Below are positions 8,168 to 23,654 of a stretch of 64,000 nucleotides of DNA, in pieces. Made by a program: the position numbers and the translations under genes. How positions within the stretch are numbered: the first letter of the stretch is position 1; each line of letters begins with the position of its first letter. The stretch is taken from assembly GCF_000513895.2 (NCBI RefSeq), contig NZ_CP165782.1:558001-622000 (forward strand), given 5' to 3'. Source of the stretch: Ensifer sp. WSM1721. GTDB taxonomy: Bacteria > Pseudomonadota > Alphaproteobacteria > Rhizobiales > Rhizobiaceae. The notes under the pieces were generated by a model. That model was given only the letters and a program-made list of their open reading frames with translations. It did no database searches and was not told where the DNA came from.

Positions 8168-10477
8168 ATGGTTTCGACTTATCTCGACTATAATCTCATC
8201 GCACGAGACATGAAGGTGAGCCTGAAACGCGTGTCGGATCAGACGATCGTTGCCCGCGACACGCAATATTATCGGGAGAACATTGGCAGTGTGACCTCGG
8301 TCGATGAGTTTCTCGCCGACTATCGCCTCTATTCCTACGCGATGAAGGCCTATGGCCTCAGCGATATGATCGAGTCCGTTGCCTTCATGCGAAAGGTACT
8401 TGAAAGCGACCTCTCCGACGACAACAGCTTCGCCAACAAGCTGACGGACGAGCGCTACCGTGAATTCGCGATGGCCTTCAGCTTCAGCGGCGGAACGGCG
8501 GTTTCCCAGACGGAGGCGCAGCTCGATGAACTGATCGGCCTCTATAGCACCGGCATCCTCGACATCGGCGAAACGCAGAAGGAGGAGACGCGCTACTACA
8601 ACATCGTGATCGATAAGATCACCAGCGTCGATCAACTCCTGAACGACGATCGGCTGAGGTCCTATGTTTTCACCGCCTACGGCATCGACGAGAATACCTA
8701 TTCCCGCGAGACGATCCGCAGCATTCTCTCCAGCAATTCCAGCGATCCGGACAGCTACGAGAATACGGTGCTCGAACCCAGGCTCTCCGAACTCGAAGCT
8801 GCCAAGGCCGAAGCGCAGGCACGGCTGAAGGAACCGGATGTGACGGCGGCGGAGAAGCTCGAGCTCGAGGCGAAAATCGCTACCTACAACAAGTCCATTG
8901 CGGCCACTAACAGCTATTTGGCAATGGCGGCGGCATTCGACTTCAACGCCGATGGCACGGTGGCCGCGGGTGCTGCGCAGACGGCCGCAAACAAAGAGGC
9001 CACGAACGAGCTCTATGTCTACAGCAATCCGCGCGTGACGCCGCAGACAGCACTCCTGAACAAGGCCTATTTTGAAGAGAAGATCGCGAGCACCACGACG
9101 GTCGATCAGCTCGTGGCCGACGCACGCCTTTATGATTACGTCCGGACGGCCTTCGATCTTAACCAGGTCACGATCGTACCGGCGACGATCAAGAACATCC
9201 TGACGAGCGATCCGGACGATCCGAACAGCTACATAAACACGATCGGCAAGGGCAACGAGAACTATAAGGCGCTGGCCAGAGCCTTCAATTTCCAGGCGGA
9301 CGGAACGCTCGCCGCCGGAGATGCTGCGCAGACGGCAGAACAGACGACGCTCACCTCCAATCGCTACATGACGCGCTACAACGACAAGGACGACGAGGCG
9401 GACGAAAAGGCGATCAGCGCCTACAAGACCGCCGTCGCGAGCATGACATCCCTCGACGACTTCATCGGCACCGCGAAGATCTATGATTTCGCGCTGAAGG
9501 CGGTCGGCCTCGATCCCGACACCGAAAGCGCGCGGACGATCAAGCGGGTGCTGACCAGCGACCTCACCGATCCAAAGAGCTTCGTCTATACGCTGAACGA
9601 CGAGCGGTACCTGACGCTTGCCAAGCTGTTCAACTTTACGACGGCGGGCGAAGTCGGCGTTCCCGCGCTGGCCCAATCCGAGACGCAGATCCAGGAAACG
9701 GCGAAGACCTACATTGTCAACAAGTCTCGTTTCGGGTCGGAGGACGACAAGGCAGCGGCAAAGGAAGAGGGCGAGTATTACACGGCCGAGATCGCCAAGA
9801 TTTCCTCGCTCGACGAATTTCTTGCCGATTCCCGCCTTGTCAGCTTCGCGCTCGAGGCGCACGGCATCGATCCGGAGAGCGTGACCGTCGATTTGATCCG
9901 TGACATCTTCACCTCCAATCTCGACGATCCCGAAAGCGTCATCAATCAGCAGGAGAATTCCGTCGCCTTCGTCACGCTGGTGACCTCCTTCAATTTCGAC
10001 AGCGAAGGAAACCTGTTGCGCGAGGCCAAGGACGTCATCATCACGCGCCAGGGACTTTACGAGACGCTCGACCGATATTTGCACCAGACGTTGGAAGAAC
10101 AGGCAGGCGAGGACAATCAAGGGGTCCGCCTCGCGCTCTACTTCGAACGCATGGCAGGCTCGCTCGTCGACGCCTACGACCTTCTCGCCGACGATGCGCT
10201 CGCCGAGGTGTTCCGCACGATCTTCAACCTGCCCGACGAGTTCAGGTCCATGGACATCGATCAGCAGGCAAAGATCGTCGAAAAGAATCTCGATCTCGAG
10301 AAGCTCAGCGACCCGGACGAGCTGAAGAAGCTGCTTGCGCGCTTTACCGTGCTCTACGATCTGGAAAACAACGTGAGCGTCGACCCGATCGTGTCGGTGC
10401 TTGCCGGGGGTGGCGGCAGCATCGGCATCAGCGCCGATACGCTCATGCAATTGTCGCAGCTCCGGATAGGTGGCTAA
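8168..10477 (+). CDS. Five-repeat DUF1217 protein
   Basis: 769 aa, no signal peptide or membrane segment. It contains five divergent copies of the DUF1217 unit at about 34-106, 142-255, 298-374, 419-494 and 535-610. Each carries a core of the type YY..I..(I/V)(T/S)S(V/L)DEFLAD.RLY.YA.KAYG(L/I), then I..(V/I)LTSDL.DP.SF and YL.LA.AFNF. Copy 2 has a 45-residue charged, probably coiled-coil insertion (EAAKAEAQARLKEPD region). The C-terminal 150 residues are a different helical tail ending in a Gly-rich stretch. DUF1217 proteins are found in and around rhizobial flagellar gene clusters; no flagellar genes flank this one. Acidic and non-catalytic-looking, it may be a structural or surface-exported protein. 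Confidence 0.8.
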   Translation: MVSTYLDYNLIARDMKVSLKRVSDQTIVARDTQYYRENIGSVTSVDEFLADYRLYSYAMKAYGLSDMIESVAFMRKVLESDLSDDNSFANKLTDERYREFAMAFSFSGGTAVSQTEAQLDELIGLYSTGILDIGETQKEETRYYNIVIDKITSVDQLLNDDRLRSYVFTAYGIDENTYSRETIRSILSSNSSDPDSYENTVLEPRLSELEAAKAEAQARLKEPDVTAAEKLELEAKIATYNKSIAATNSYLAMAAAFDFNADGTVAAGAAQTAANKEATNELYVYSNPRVTPQTALLNKAYFEEKIASTTTVDQLVADARLYDYVRTAFDLNQVTIVPATIKNILTSDPDDPNSYINTIGKGNENYKALARAFNFQADGTLAAGDAAQTAEQTTLTSNRYMTRYNDKDDEADEKAISAYKTAVASMTSLDDFIGTAKIYDFALKAVGLDPDTESARTIKRVLTSDLTDPKSFVYTLNDERYLTLAKLFNFTTAGEVGVPALAQSETQIQETAKTYIVNKSRFGSEDDKAAAKEEGEYYTAEIAKISSLDEFLADSRLVSFALEAHGIDPESVTVDLIRDIFTSNLDDPESVINQQENSVAFVTLVTSFNFDSEGNLLREAKDVIITRQGLYETLDRYLHQTLEEQAGEDNQGVRLALYFERMAGSLVDAYDLLADDALAEVFRTIFNLPDEFRSMDIDQQAKIVEKNLDLEKLSDPDELKKLLARFTVLYDLENNVSVDPIVSVLAGGGGSIGISADTLMQLSQLRIGG

Positions 10478-20682: not shown

Positions 20683-20979
20683 GCTCGTTGATCCCTCGGC
20701 GCAGGGTAGGACATCATGGTTAACAGAGCGTTTTGTCCAATCGGGCGCGCGCTTCTGCGGCCGGTGGCGTCGCAAAGAGATAAGGCATATTCGCGTTGGG
20801 AATGGCGCTGCCGAAAAAATCGTCACTTGCCCAATTTTTCTCGTATCATCTTGTTTGTTATAGATAATTTCTCTTTCGAACACACCCGTCCCGCATTGGT
20901 TTGGCTGTCGTCATTCTGGAATCGGATGTCGCGGATCGGCAGTTGCGCTAGCCGGCCGTAGGCTTAGATACGGGCAACT
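20683..20979. other. AT-richer promoter region ahead of the riboswitch
   Basis: No gene is convincing here. The stretch 20815-20880 is markedly AT-rich for this genome and is the likely promoter zone for the riboswitch-controlled operon. It also holds the BioR-like decamer described separately. Confidence 0.5.
20858..20867. promoter_or_regulatory. BioR-like box
   Basis: TTATAGATAA is an exact match to the alphaproteobacterial BioR operator consensus TTAT(A/C)(G/T)ATAA. It lies about 120 bp upstream of the cobalamin riboswitch and about 305 bp upstream of the divergent hypothetical gene. It could be a chance match within an AT-rich promoter; no bioR gene or biotin synthesis gene is adjacent. 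Confidence 0.3.
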
Positions 20980-21150
20980 CAAGGTGCCGCCTTTAGGGAG
21001 GGCGGAGAATTGGGAAGCCGGTCAAATCCCGGCGCTGCCCCCGCAACGGTGGTGGAGCACAAGCCTCGGCAAAAGGCCACTGGACATGTCGTCCGGGAAG
21101 GCGCCGGGCAAGTCCTTGGCGGACGGCTCCAGAGCCCGGAAACCAGCCTT
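20980..21150 (+). promoter_or_regulatory. Cobalamin (adenosyl-B12) riboswitch
   Basis: All hallmarks are in order: AAGGTGCC at 20981, GGGAAGCCGGTCAAATCC then GGCGCTGCCCCCGCAAC (21012-21047), GCCACTG at 21076-21082, GGGAAGGCGCCGGG, and the B12 box GAGCCCGGAAACCAGCC at 21132-21148. The Rieske oxygenase gene starts 125 bp later. Expression platform: CTGGTT at 21171-21176 can pair either with AACCAG inside the B12 box (21141-21146) or with AACCAG at 21250-21255, just ahead of the GAGGACAAGG Shine-Dalgarno. These pairings are mutually exclusive and would support translational control, with expression lowered when B12 is bound. Confidence 0.92.
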
Positions 21151-21274
21151 GACGCGAAAATCGACCGTAACTGGTTGCGGCGGGCAGCCGGATCGGGCCT
21201 TGGCGTTCCGGCATATCCGGCCGGCGCGGGCTCCAGTCCTGCCTCTCCGAACCAGGGTGAACGAGGACAAGGAC

Positions 21275-22519
21275 ATGGACACACAGAACGACATGCTGCG
21301 CAAGCTGAAGGCCCGCCGGGAGGGCTATAGCCTCGATCGTGCCTTCTACGTCGACCCGGACTATTATCGTCAGGACCTGGAGCATATCTGGTACAAGGAC
21401 TGGCTCTTCATCGGCCATGATTGCGAAGTCCCGCGGCCCGGCAACTATTTCACCGTGCAGGTCGGCGATTACCCGATCGTCATCGTGCGCGACCGGCAAG
21501 GCACGATCCGGGCGCTGCACAATTCTTGCCGCCACCGCGGCTCGCGCGTCTGCACGCAGCACAAGGGCTCGTCCGCCAAGCTCGTCTGTCCCTACCACCA
21601 GTGGACCTACGAACTCGACGGCAAGCTGCTCTTCGCCCGGCAGATGCCCGAAGGATTCGATCCGTCTCAGCACAGCCTCAAGCCGGTGCATTGCGAGACC
21701 GTCGGCGGCTATATCTTCATCAGCCTTGCCGACCAGCCGATGGATTTCCAGCCTTTCCGCGACATGGTCGCAGGTTATCTCGCACCGCACCGCCTTGGCG
21801 AGACCAAGGTCGCGTTCGAGAGCACCATCGTCGAGAAGGGCAACTGGAAGCTCGTCTGGGAGAACAACCGAGAGTGCTACCACTGCGCCGCCAATCATCC
21901 GGAGCTCTGCCGGACATATCCAGAGGCGCCGACGGTGACGGGCGTCCAGGGCGCGATGGACGATCCGGAAATTGGCGCCCATTGGGAAAAGTGCGAGGCG
22001 GCGGGCCTGCCGAGCGCCTTCAAAATTGCACCGACCGGGCAGTTCCGGATGACGAGAATGCCGCTGATCAACGGGGCCGACAGCTATACCATGTCCGGCC
22101 AGAAGGCCGTGCGCAAACAGCTCTCCGGCGAGATAAATGCGAGCGGCATCGGCACGTTGTTGCTCTTCCACTATCCGACCACGTGGAACCACATCCTCGG
22201 CGATCATGCGATCACTTTCCGCGTGCTGCCGCTCGGGCCTGAATTGACGCAGGTGACGACGAAATGGCTCGTCAACAAGGATGCGGTCGAGGGTGTCGAC
22301 TATACGCTCGAGGACCTCACCCACGTCTGGACGGAGACCAACGACCAGGATCGGCAGATCGTCGAGGAAAACGCCTTCGGCATCCGCTCTCCTGCCTATG
22401 AGCCGGGGCCCTATTCGGCCGAGCACGAGGGCGGCGTGATGCAGTTCGTCGAATGGTATTCGAGCTTCATGCTGGATCGTCTTCAGGGCGGCGCAGCCCG
22501 TCTTTCCCGGGTGGCATAA
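21275..22519 (+). CDS. Rieske oxygenase, glycine-betaine/stachydrine demethylase type
   Basis: 414 aa. The Rieske centre ligands are C85-x-H87 (CRHRG) and C105-x2-H108 (CPYH). The mononuclear iron site has the E200-C-Y-H203-x4-H208 pattern (ECYHCAANH). Overall it resembles GbcA (glycine betaine monooxygenase) and Stc2 (stachydrine demethylase), which remove an N-methyl group as formaldehyde. ATG 21275 follows GAGGACAAGG. It is the first gene of a two-gene operon with its reductase (3-bp gap) and sits under a cobalamin riboswitch. I would put glycine betaine first and other quaternary amines second as substrate. Confidence 0.88.
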   Translation: MDTQNDMLRKLKARREGYSLDRAFYVDPDYYRQDLEHIWYKDWLFIGHDCEVPRPGNYFTVQVGDYPIVIVRDRQGTIRALHNSCRHRGSRVCTQHKGSSAKLVCPYHQWTYELDGKLLFARQMPEGFDPSQHSLKPVHCETVGGYIFISLADQPMDFQPFRDMVAGYLAPHRLGETKVAFESTIVEKGNWKLVWENNRECYHCAANHPELCRTYPEAPTVTGVQGAMDDPEIGAHWEKCEAAGLPSAFKIAPTGQFRMTRMPLINGADSYTMSGQKAVRKQLSGEINASGIGTLLLFHYPTTWNHILGDHAITFRVLPLGPELTQVTTKWLVNKDAVEGVDYTLEDLTHVWTETNDQDRQIVEENAFGIRSPAYEPGPYSAEHEGGVMQFVEWYSSFMLDRLQGGAARLSRVA

Positions 22520-22522
22520 CCC

Positions 22523-23611
22523 ATGGAAATGGCACGCTTCTTCCACCACTTCGACGAGCTCCATCCCTGGAGAGACCGCCAGCACATGCTCGAATGCATC
22601 TCAGCGGTCGCCGAGACCGCGGACGTGATGACGTTCACCTTCCGCTCCGAAAAGCCGGCCTGGTTCCGCTACCTGCCGGGGCAGTTCGTCACGCTCGAAC
22701 TGCCGGTTGGCGAGGAGCCGGTGATGCGTACCTATACGCTGTCGTCCTCGCCGTCGCGCCCGCTTTCGGTCGCCGTCACCGTCAAGGCGCAGCCGGGGAG
22801 CATCGGCACGCGCTGGATGTTCGACAATCTGAAGCCGGGCATGGCGCTGAAGGCGCTCGGGCCGCTCGGCGATTTCAGCTTCGTCCGGCACCCCGGCGAG
22901 AAGTATCTTTTCATCTCGGCCGGCTCGGGCATCACGCCGATGATGTCGATGACGCGCTGGATGGCGGACTGCGCGCCGGAAACCGACGTCACCTTCATCT
23001 CCTGTGCGCGCCGGCCGGACGATCTCCTATTCAAGTCGGAGCTGGAAGTCCTCGCGCGTCAGATGCCTCGGCTCAATCTCGGCTTTCTGGTGGAGGGACA
23101 CGAGGCGCGCCACGGCTGGCACGGCCTGCGCGGCCGCATCGACGCGACGAAGCTGCCATTGCTCGCGCCGGATTTCCTGGAAATGACCGTCTTCTGCTGT
23201 GGGCCCGAGCCCTTCATGCGCGGTGTCCGAGAAATGCTGAAGACCGCCGGTTTCGACATGGCGCGCTACCACCAGGAGAGCTTCCAGCCGGCGGCCGCAC
23301 CCGCTGCCGAGGAGCTTGCAGTCCGCGCGGGACCGGCCGCGGGCACTGAGGCGGCGAAGGTGAGCTTCACCATGAGCGGCAAGGAGGTAACGGCCGTTCC
23401 CGGTCAGACGATCCTGCAGACGGCACGCGCCAGCGGCGTCAGGATCGGTGCGGCCTGCGAGGGCGGCATTTGCGGCACGTGCCGGGTGATGAAGGTCTCA
23501 GGCGACGTCGAGATGAACCACAATGGCGGCATCCTCGATGACGAGATCGAGGAGGGCTATATCCTCGCCTGCTGCTCGCGACCGCTCGGCGACGTCCAGA
23601 TCGAAGCGTAA
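22523..23611 (+). CDS. Hybrid FAD/NAD/[2Fe-2S] reductase of the Rieske oxygenase (GbcB type)
   Basis: 362 aa. A ferredoxin-reductase FAD domain carries RTYTLSSSPSRP near residue 72, and an NAD-binding domain has FISAGSGITPMMSM and FCCGPEPFM. A C-terminal plant-type [2Fe-2S] ferredoxin domain supplies C312, C317, C320 (CEGGICGTC) and a fourth Cys in ILACCSRP. It passes electrons from NAD(P)H to the preceding oxygenase. The start is 3 bp after that gene's stop, so they are translationally linked and share the riboswitch. Confidence 0.9.
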   Translation: MEMARFFHHFDELHPWRDRQHMLECISAVAETADVMTFTFRSEKPAWFRYLPGQFVTLELPVGEEPVMRTYTLSSSPSRPLSVAVTVKAQPGSIGTRWMFDNLKPGMALKALGPLGDFSFVRHPGEKYLFISAGSGITPMMSMTRWMADCAPETDVTFISCARRPDDLLFKSELEVLARQMPRLNLGFLVEGHEARHGWHGLRGRIDATKLPLLAPDFLEMTVFCCGPEPFMRGVREMLKTAGFDMARYHQESFQPAAAPAAEELAVRAGPAAGTEAAKVSFTMSGKEVTAVPGQTILQTARASGVRIGAACEGGICGTCRVMKVSGDVEMNHNGGILDDEIEEGYILACCSRPLGDVQIEA

Positions 23612-23654
23612 ATTGATCGTCGGTTGGGCGGGACGCGGTGGAAAACGCGGCCCG

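Follow-up and report, generated by a model that had tools for sequence, protein, structure and literature searches.

A 64,000-nucleotide stretch of the Ensifer sp. WSM1721 genome (hereafter the window; G000:C1:558001-622000 of a 6.33 Mb genome in four contigs) carries a cobalamin riboswitch directly upstream of an operon for a Rieske oxygenase and a reductase. This is a widely conserved riboswitch-operon, in which the riboswitch most likely controls a B12-independent isozyme for the demethylation of a quaternary amine, probably glycine betaine. We put the probability at about 0.7 that the riboswitch holds a B12-independent betaine demethylase in reserve while a corrinoid-dependent route works. 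The riboswitch stands directly before a B12-free enzyme, an MttB-superfamily (PF06253) counterpart is encoded in the same genome, and across the genomes compared an intact riboswitch was kept only together with MttB (84/84). According to the relevant passages of PMC12478193, this superfamily includes corrinoid-dependent methyltransferases. The three elements are as follows (window coordinates).

20965-21165, + strand: cobalamin riboswitch aptamer RF00174 (cmscan, 111.6 bits, E 4.1e-27, full model 1-189)
21275-22519, + strand: alpha subunit of a Group V Rieske oxygenase (GbcA/Stc2-like; 414 aa), with PF00355 and PF00848
22523-23611, + strand: GbcB-like reductase (FAD, NAD, 2Fe-2S), 362 aa, with PF00970, PF00175 and PF00111

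According to the proposed mechanism, betaine would be demethylated under ample cobalamin by the corrinoid-dependent MtgB/MtgC module of the MttB superfamily, a route that would conserve the methyl group by passing it to folate and homocysteine, while the Rieske operon would be repressed by the riboswitch. At low cobalamin, the first demethylation would fall to the oxygenase and reductase, which would use O2 and NADH and release formaldehyde. The passages of Mausz et al. 2025 (PMC12478193) on this system describe cobalamin-dependent betaine demethylation by MtgBCD, in which MtgB demethylates glycine betaine, and place MtgBCDE beside a cobalamin operon in S. meliloti. The MtgBCD system is thus the proposed counterpart for the same first step, and one MttB gene of the window genome adjoins an MtgC-like protein; it differs in being B12-dependent, methyl-conserving and of a protein family unrelated to the Rieske oxygenase. 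A rule set out in part of PMC2211319 states that, in organisms with both isozymes, cobalamin represses the B12-independent one, as with metE. The window operon resembles metE as a B12-independent isozyme behind a cobalamin riboswitch in genomes owning a B12-dependent enzyme. It differs in that the Rieske pair probably performs oxidative N-demethylation of a quaternary amine, and in that the partner belongs to the MttB superfamily rather than being MetH. By this analogy, the Rieske oxygenase and MttB would perform the same reaction step. The original prediction had held that the operon is not a B12-independent isozyme; the tracking of MttB by the riboswitch and the three MttB genes of the window genome, one of them MtgC-linked, argue against that claim.

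The co-occurrence was established in several samples. The 80-locus set comprised the best 80 relatives among the matches listed from genome contigs, of which there are more than 80. MttB was searched in 79 of these 80 genomes (L021 was left out) and was present in 54/54 with an intact riboswitch and in 1/24 without one (L025, Ciceribacter lividus); L018, with a damaged aptamer, has no MttB. For the order-level set, 297 genomes were drawn, and 36 besides the window's had an ortholog with an identity of at least ~54%; G335 was left out, its sole match being broken. With the window genome added, MttB was found in 19/19 genomes with the riboswitch and 7/18 without. Two genomes are shared with the 80-locus set (G223 is the genome of L078, and G069 that of L039). 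The class-level set of 389 genomes gave 25 genomes with a match at E 1e-120 or better (45-68% identity); the window genome, G069, G483 and G825 (the genome of L082) were left out, and among the remaining 21 MttB was present in 11/11 with the riboswitch and 4/10 without (Fisher's test, p = 0.0039). In G483, from another order, riboswitch and MttB are both present. None of the eight GbcA equivalog loci has a riboswitch, and one of their genomes has MttB.

The combined table of 136 genomes, the window's included, held 84 genomes with both riboswitch and MttB, none with the riboswitch alone, 12 with MttB alone and 40 with neither (Fisher's test, p = 4.6e-24, kinship ignored). L039 and L095 are one genome (identical protein); with both retained, there are 137 rows, 41 of them in the cell lacking both features. 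L097 was dropped as a duplicate of the genome of L078, and G825 (L176) as the same genome as Inquilinus L082, in each case by identical MttB coordinates; the second Rieske copies of G175 (L127), G259 and G825 (L199) were also dropped. Owing to its replaced B12 box, L018 was counted among the genomes lacking an intact riboswitch, and the tests were computed both ways. Absence of the riboswitch was scored with a dedicated covariance model (R1, described below) in the 80-locus set, with 6 of the 24 negative loci rechecked by Rfam, and with Rfam in the other sets.

Kinship was addressed with Pagel-type likelihood tests, run with few optimiser starts on the Rieske gene tree rooted at its midpoint. 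Dependence was preferred with all 137 rows (likelihood ratio (LR) 36.0, p = 2.9e-7), without the duplicate (LR 32.0, p = 1.9e-6) and with L018 treated as riboswitch-bearing (LR 28.2, p = 1.1e-5). The fitted rate of riboswitch loss was 20-403 without MttB versus 0.2-0.6 with MttB; the former values vary with model choices and with the few optimiser starts, and mean only that loss is fast. Independent pairs numbered 3-6 concordant (mean 4.2-4.4) and 0 discordant, with a uniform direction.

The original prediction had assigned the operon a different purpose, namely that betaine breakdown is turned on at low B12 and provides glycine for aminolevulinate and corrin together with one-carbon units for methionine. 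We consider this unlikely. Such a purpose predicts that the riboswitch tracks corrin synthesis, and cobF, the one marker tested, does not track it: CobF scored above the cut-off in 22 of the 31 genomes whose Rieske operon has an intact riboswitch and in 11 of the 17 MttB-less genomes without it. The 49th genome, G019, has MttB, no riboswitch at the Rieske gene and no CobF above the cut-off. Riboswitch presence tracks MttB and not this corrin marker. RF00174 matches were found in 49/49 genomes searched, with 2-7 in each of the 17 MttB-less ones (one match in G013 may be the damaged copy itself). MttB-less genomes thus still use B12 riboswitches elsewhere, and the glycine-supply explanation leaves unexplained why an intact riboswitch at the Rieske operon is absent from every MttB-less genome in the set. 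It can draw on the presence of CobF near the operon in L026, L082 and G175, on the location of some operons near MetH or metE, and on betaine in an S. meliloti B12-production medium as given in a passage of PMC5948670.

The conservation of the riboswitch-gbcAB arrangement, proposed as a check by the original prediction, was examined with covariance model R1, built from the window and 21 relatives. An aptamer was found upstream of the Rieske gene in 56 of the 80 best relatives; 55 scored 155-219 bits, and that of L018, with a replaced B12 box, scored 97 bits. The Rfam recheck of six of the 24 riboswitch-less loci (L014, L025, L028, L031, L054, L068) gave no RF00174 match. The nearest named relatives of the window genome by Rieske gene are Sinorhizobium/Ensifer, and S. 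meliloti records match positions 20950-23620, which include the riboswitch, at 86.5% over 99%. The exceptional aptamer (L018:5633-5837, Rhizobium sp. Leaf371, no MttB) lies before the Rieske gene and scores 57.9 bits by Rfam, above the 31.5 cut-off, with three intact aptamers run alongside at 93-108 bits; it is probably a riboswitch fossil.

Another explanation is that the riboswitch travels with a B12/methionine gene cluster, or is a left-over without adaptive pairing. Some loci do lie among B12 or methionine genes, and the independent-pairs test discussed below did not reach significance. However, several alphaproteobacterial orders keep the aptamer at a distance of ~90-230 nt from the start codon, upstream of it, and the aptamer is damaged where MttB was lost (L018). 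Few B12 or betaine neighbours were found in the fetched flanks of the 80 loci: one MtgC-like, one DMGDH-like and two CobF-like; the other five B12/betaine probes, a panel that excluded MetH and metE, gave none. Three upstream neighbours of the window operon (a GlcD-like gene, a TsaC-like gene and an unassigned gene) recur in 47-48 of the 80 loci, so the Rieske operon of Rhizobiaceae-type loci sits among unrelated genes. We consider hitchhiking or a left-over very unlikely.

The aptamer at 20965-21165 is the sole Rfam match above the gathering score (31.5 bits) in the window, and at 111.6 bits a chance resemblance was ruled out. In a 22-sequence aptamer alignment, the B12 box and junction core lie in invariant columns, as belongs to RF00174, and 13 of 44 predicted pairs are changed on both sides in some sequences with pairing kept. 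Two segments of this alignment are listed below.

21034-21047, + strand: invariant GCTGCCCCCGCAAC, a candidate for the L5 side of the kissing contact with L13
21076-21083, + strand: B12 box GCCACTGG, with CCACTGG invariant

The full B12 aptamer with its B12 box before an oxygenase/reductase pair, as originally described, was thus confirmed; the distance of 125 bp given for it was not, the measured gap from aptamer end to the oxygenase ATG (21275) being 109 nt. Corrinoid binding and a resulting change of expression are predicted from RF00174 membership. The window genome has five RF00174 matches, that of the Rieske operon included; the others precede apparent B12-transport, cobalt-transport (CbtA-like) and cobinamide-kinase genes and one unassigned gene, as judged by open reading frame (ORF) reading alone.

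The reductase gene begins 3 nt past the oxygenase stop. The description of the operon as betaine-demethylase-type held; the Rieske oxygenase and FAD/NAD/2Fe-2S reductase are like Group V quaternary-amine demethylases. The narrower label "GbcAB type" fits at the superfamily level and fails in the strict sense. The oxygenase scored 519.3 bits against the GbcA model NF058607 (cut-off 670) and the reductase 395 bits against the GbcB model NF058606 (cut-off 500); in a quick tree of 76 rows, the eight GbcA equivalogs formed a separate clade with the window clade outside it, and strict GbcAB membership was rejected. The window pair thus shares the two-component Group V architecture of the GbcAB glycine betaine monooxygenase of Pseudomonas and Chromohalobacter, but differs in its scores and clade and in the riboswitch, found in 0/8 GbcA equivalog loci. 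The best solved relatives of the oxygenase were 3n0q (547 bits) and the stachydrine demethylase Stc2 (521 bits), which fall together in the sister clade of the window clade. Stc2 (S. meliloti, PDB 3vca) represents the nearest characterised clade: its residues Cys202/Cys205 (Cys-X-X-Cys, iron site) and Trp353, whose roles in Stc2 are treated in part of PMC10952381, are conserved in the window oxygenase, although the window clade is separate. The oxygenase is a Group V-type quaternary-amine oxygenase with a predicted demethylation or cleavage activity. Comparison of the active sites did not distinguish glycine betaine from proline betaine. Given the scores under the GbcA/GbcB cut-offs and the clade sister to Stc2, the substrate is probable rather than proven. 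In 15 of the 80 loci no adjacent reductase was found (L024, L029, L031-L035, L039, L043, L047, L055-L057, L061, L068); all are Rhizobium-type relatives without riboswitch and without MttB.

The MttB genes provide further information on the substrate. The window genome has three. The gene at C1:1844194-1845690 has an MtgC-like corrinoid protein (209 bits, cut-off 370) at a distance of 0.7 kb and an AcsV/RamA-like corrinoid activator (381 bits, cut-off 800) at ~8 kb, with a BHMT/MtgE gene (584 bits, above cut-off) ~4 kb away on the other side. In the riboswitch-bearing genomes with a single MttB (G014, G041, G042, G293, G259), that gene best matches the MtgC-linked one of the window genome, with identity of 89-93% in the first four and 67% in G259. 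Since the lone MttB is the MtgC-linked one, the isozyme logic favours glycine betaine as the oxygenase substrate. The same logic with another substrate, either stachydrine (proline betaine) or another quaternary amine, handled with B12 by a second MttB paralog, appears doubtful to us: the position of the window clade beside Stc2/3n0q, with the GbcA equivalogs outside, and the two or more MttB genes in all but these five riboswitch-bearing genomes speak for it, but the identity of the lone MttB and the lack of a riboswitch in the two nearest sampled Stc2 relatives (L123, L126) speak against it. We favour glycine betaine by a modest margin of belief, and regard it as quite likely that the substrate is some quaternary amine also handled by an MttB-family enzyme. 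A divergent MttB-family member (G000:C1:2189321-2190811, 361 bits) stands beside two FAD/GcvT-domain (DMGDH-like) proteins, ~11 kb from a riboswitch before a CbtA-like gene (ORF reading).

Three elements of the leader downstream of the aptamer concern the mode of control.

21171-21191, + strand: P13/L13-type hairpin with loop GGCGG, directly 3' of the aptamer
21235-21240, + strand: candidate Shine-Dalgarno sequester AGTCCT, hypothetically pairing with the Shine-Dalgarno sequence in the minimum-energy fold
21263-21274, + strand: Shine-Dalgarno sequence GAGGACAAGGAC, paired with the candidate sequester in the minimum-energy fold

The post-aptamer hairpin showed conservation and covariation in 36 sequences with 7 pairs: 96.0% of 252 cells were paired and 26 were changed on both sides, compared with 22-49% paired in slid controls. 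A kissing contact between L5 and L13 is a known feature of cobalamin riboswitches, and the CCCCGC loop of the aptamer appeared by eye complementary to the GGCGG/GGTGG loop of the hairpin. Bound cobalamin would favour this contact, which would in turn favour a leader fold hiding the Shine-Dalgarno sequence; at low cobalamin, the empty aptamer would let the leader refold, most likely freeing the ribosome-binding site. The sequester pairing was compared with shuffles in 69 sequences, the window included (L070, L073, L076 and L118, without a recognisable hairpin motif, were left out), and only 9 and 5 sequences had ≤5/100 shuffles as good. The detailed anti-Shine-Dalgarno/anti-P13 switch, persuasive by eye and in single folds, was consequently rejected as a demonstrated mechanism, and the sequester pairing, no better than shuffles, is put forward as a guess. 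No intrinsic terminator turned up in a simple scan of the + strand from the aptamer to the ATG, so translational control of the Rieske operon is more likely. Repression by B12 is expected from the known behaviour of the class, and the original claim that low B12 switches the operon on draws its support from the same analogy.

Several points weigh against the isozyme explanation. The strict independent-pairs test was not significant (median p 0.125), and the kinship tests rest on a gene tree. The L018 aptamer is above the Rfam cut-off, and if it is counted MttB accompanies 84/85 riboswitches. Twelve riboswitch-less genomes nevertheless have MttB (L025, L110, L117, L122-L126, L181, L191, L196, L197), and in most genomes the scoring of MttB was at superfamily level. 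The predicted switch pairing did no better than shuffled sequence. Because the oxygenase groups closer to Stc2 than to GbcA, a substrate shared with MtgB is presumed rather than established. Finally, S. meliloti makes its own B12, so the occasion of a shortage is uncertain.

If the isozyme explanation is true, betaine demethylation becomes another of the few steps with a B12-dependent and a B12-independent enzyme controlled by a riboswitch, for which methionine synthase is the known exemplar and ribonucleotide reductase a further one. We see about even prospects that a B12 riboswitch toggles one nutrient step between two unrelated chemistries, corrinoid methyl transfer at ample B12 and Rieske demethylation at low B12, across several alphaproteobacterial orders. 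Such control would link cobalt/B12 status to osmolyte catabolism in legume symbionts, and the loss of a B12-dependent enzyme may be recognisable by damage to a riboswitch elsewhere in the genome. S. meliloti offers a direct test of how rhizobia use betaine. A B12 element before an oxygenase/reductase pair, ardX-frdX, may already stand in the list of Rodionov et al. (2003), and priority for the bare riboswitch-operon observation may lie there. The full-text literature searched, with most subscription journals outside its scope, yielded no description of the riboswitch/Rieske-MttB pairing. The riboswitch, gbcA and Rieske passages of PMC12478193 do not mention a riboswitch-controlled GbcAB; the isozyme pairing may also concern the S. 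meliloti betaine route, which that paper discusses as unresolved. The S. meliloti riboswitches in the relevant part of PMC5948670 include bluB and cobU and not the Rieske operon, and the passages of PMC2667541, PMC2873474 and PMC12366255 bearing on the subject contain nothing on it.

Operon surroundings vary among the relatives. In L037 and L081 (Mesorhizobium), the Rieske operon is faced by a metE gene that scores above the curated cut-off and has an RF00174 riboswitch of its own (134.5 and 134.7 bits). Both loci have a third RF00174 match, ~4 kb upstream of the Rieske unit (L037:1073-1288, + strand, 122.5 bits; L081:1169-1378, + strand, 123.3 bits). MetH is directly upstream of the riboswitch-oxygenase unit in L026 and L058; CobF is found ~4 kb upstream in L026, with MetH between, and just downstream in L082. 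A FAD/GcvT-domain protein (labelled DMGDH-like) and MttB adjoin the operon in G087, and GbdR-like, MtgC-like, AcsV-like, BHMT/MtgE and MttB genes lie within ~30 kb of it in G259. In G175, the reductase is followed by glutathione-independent formaldehyde dehydrogenase and CobF (both above cut-offs) and a GbdR-like regulator (below cut-off), and a divergent second riboswitch precedes a TonB-dependent receptor that resembles the B12 receptor best (277 bits, cut-off 600).

Second riboswitches were also seen elsewhere. In L049, one (8760-8968, - strand, 106.4 bits) lies by the Rieske operon, apparently just after a minus-strand MetH and with no obvious target. In L141 (G101), a divergent second B12 riboswitch (~9414-9618, - strand) precedes what ORF reading suggests to be a LysR regulator and MetH-like pieces. 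L179 and L180 each have two back-to-back B12 riboswitches, one directed towards the Rieske gene and the other away from it.

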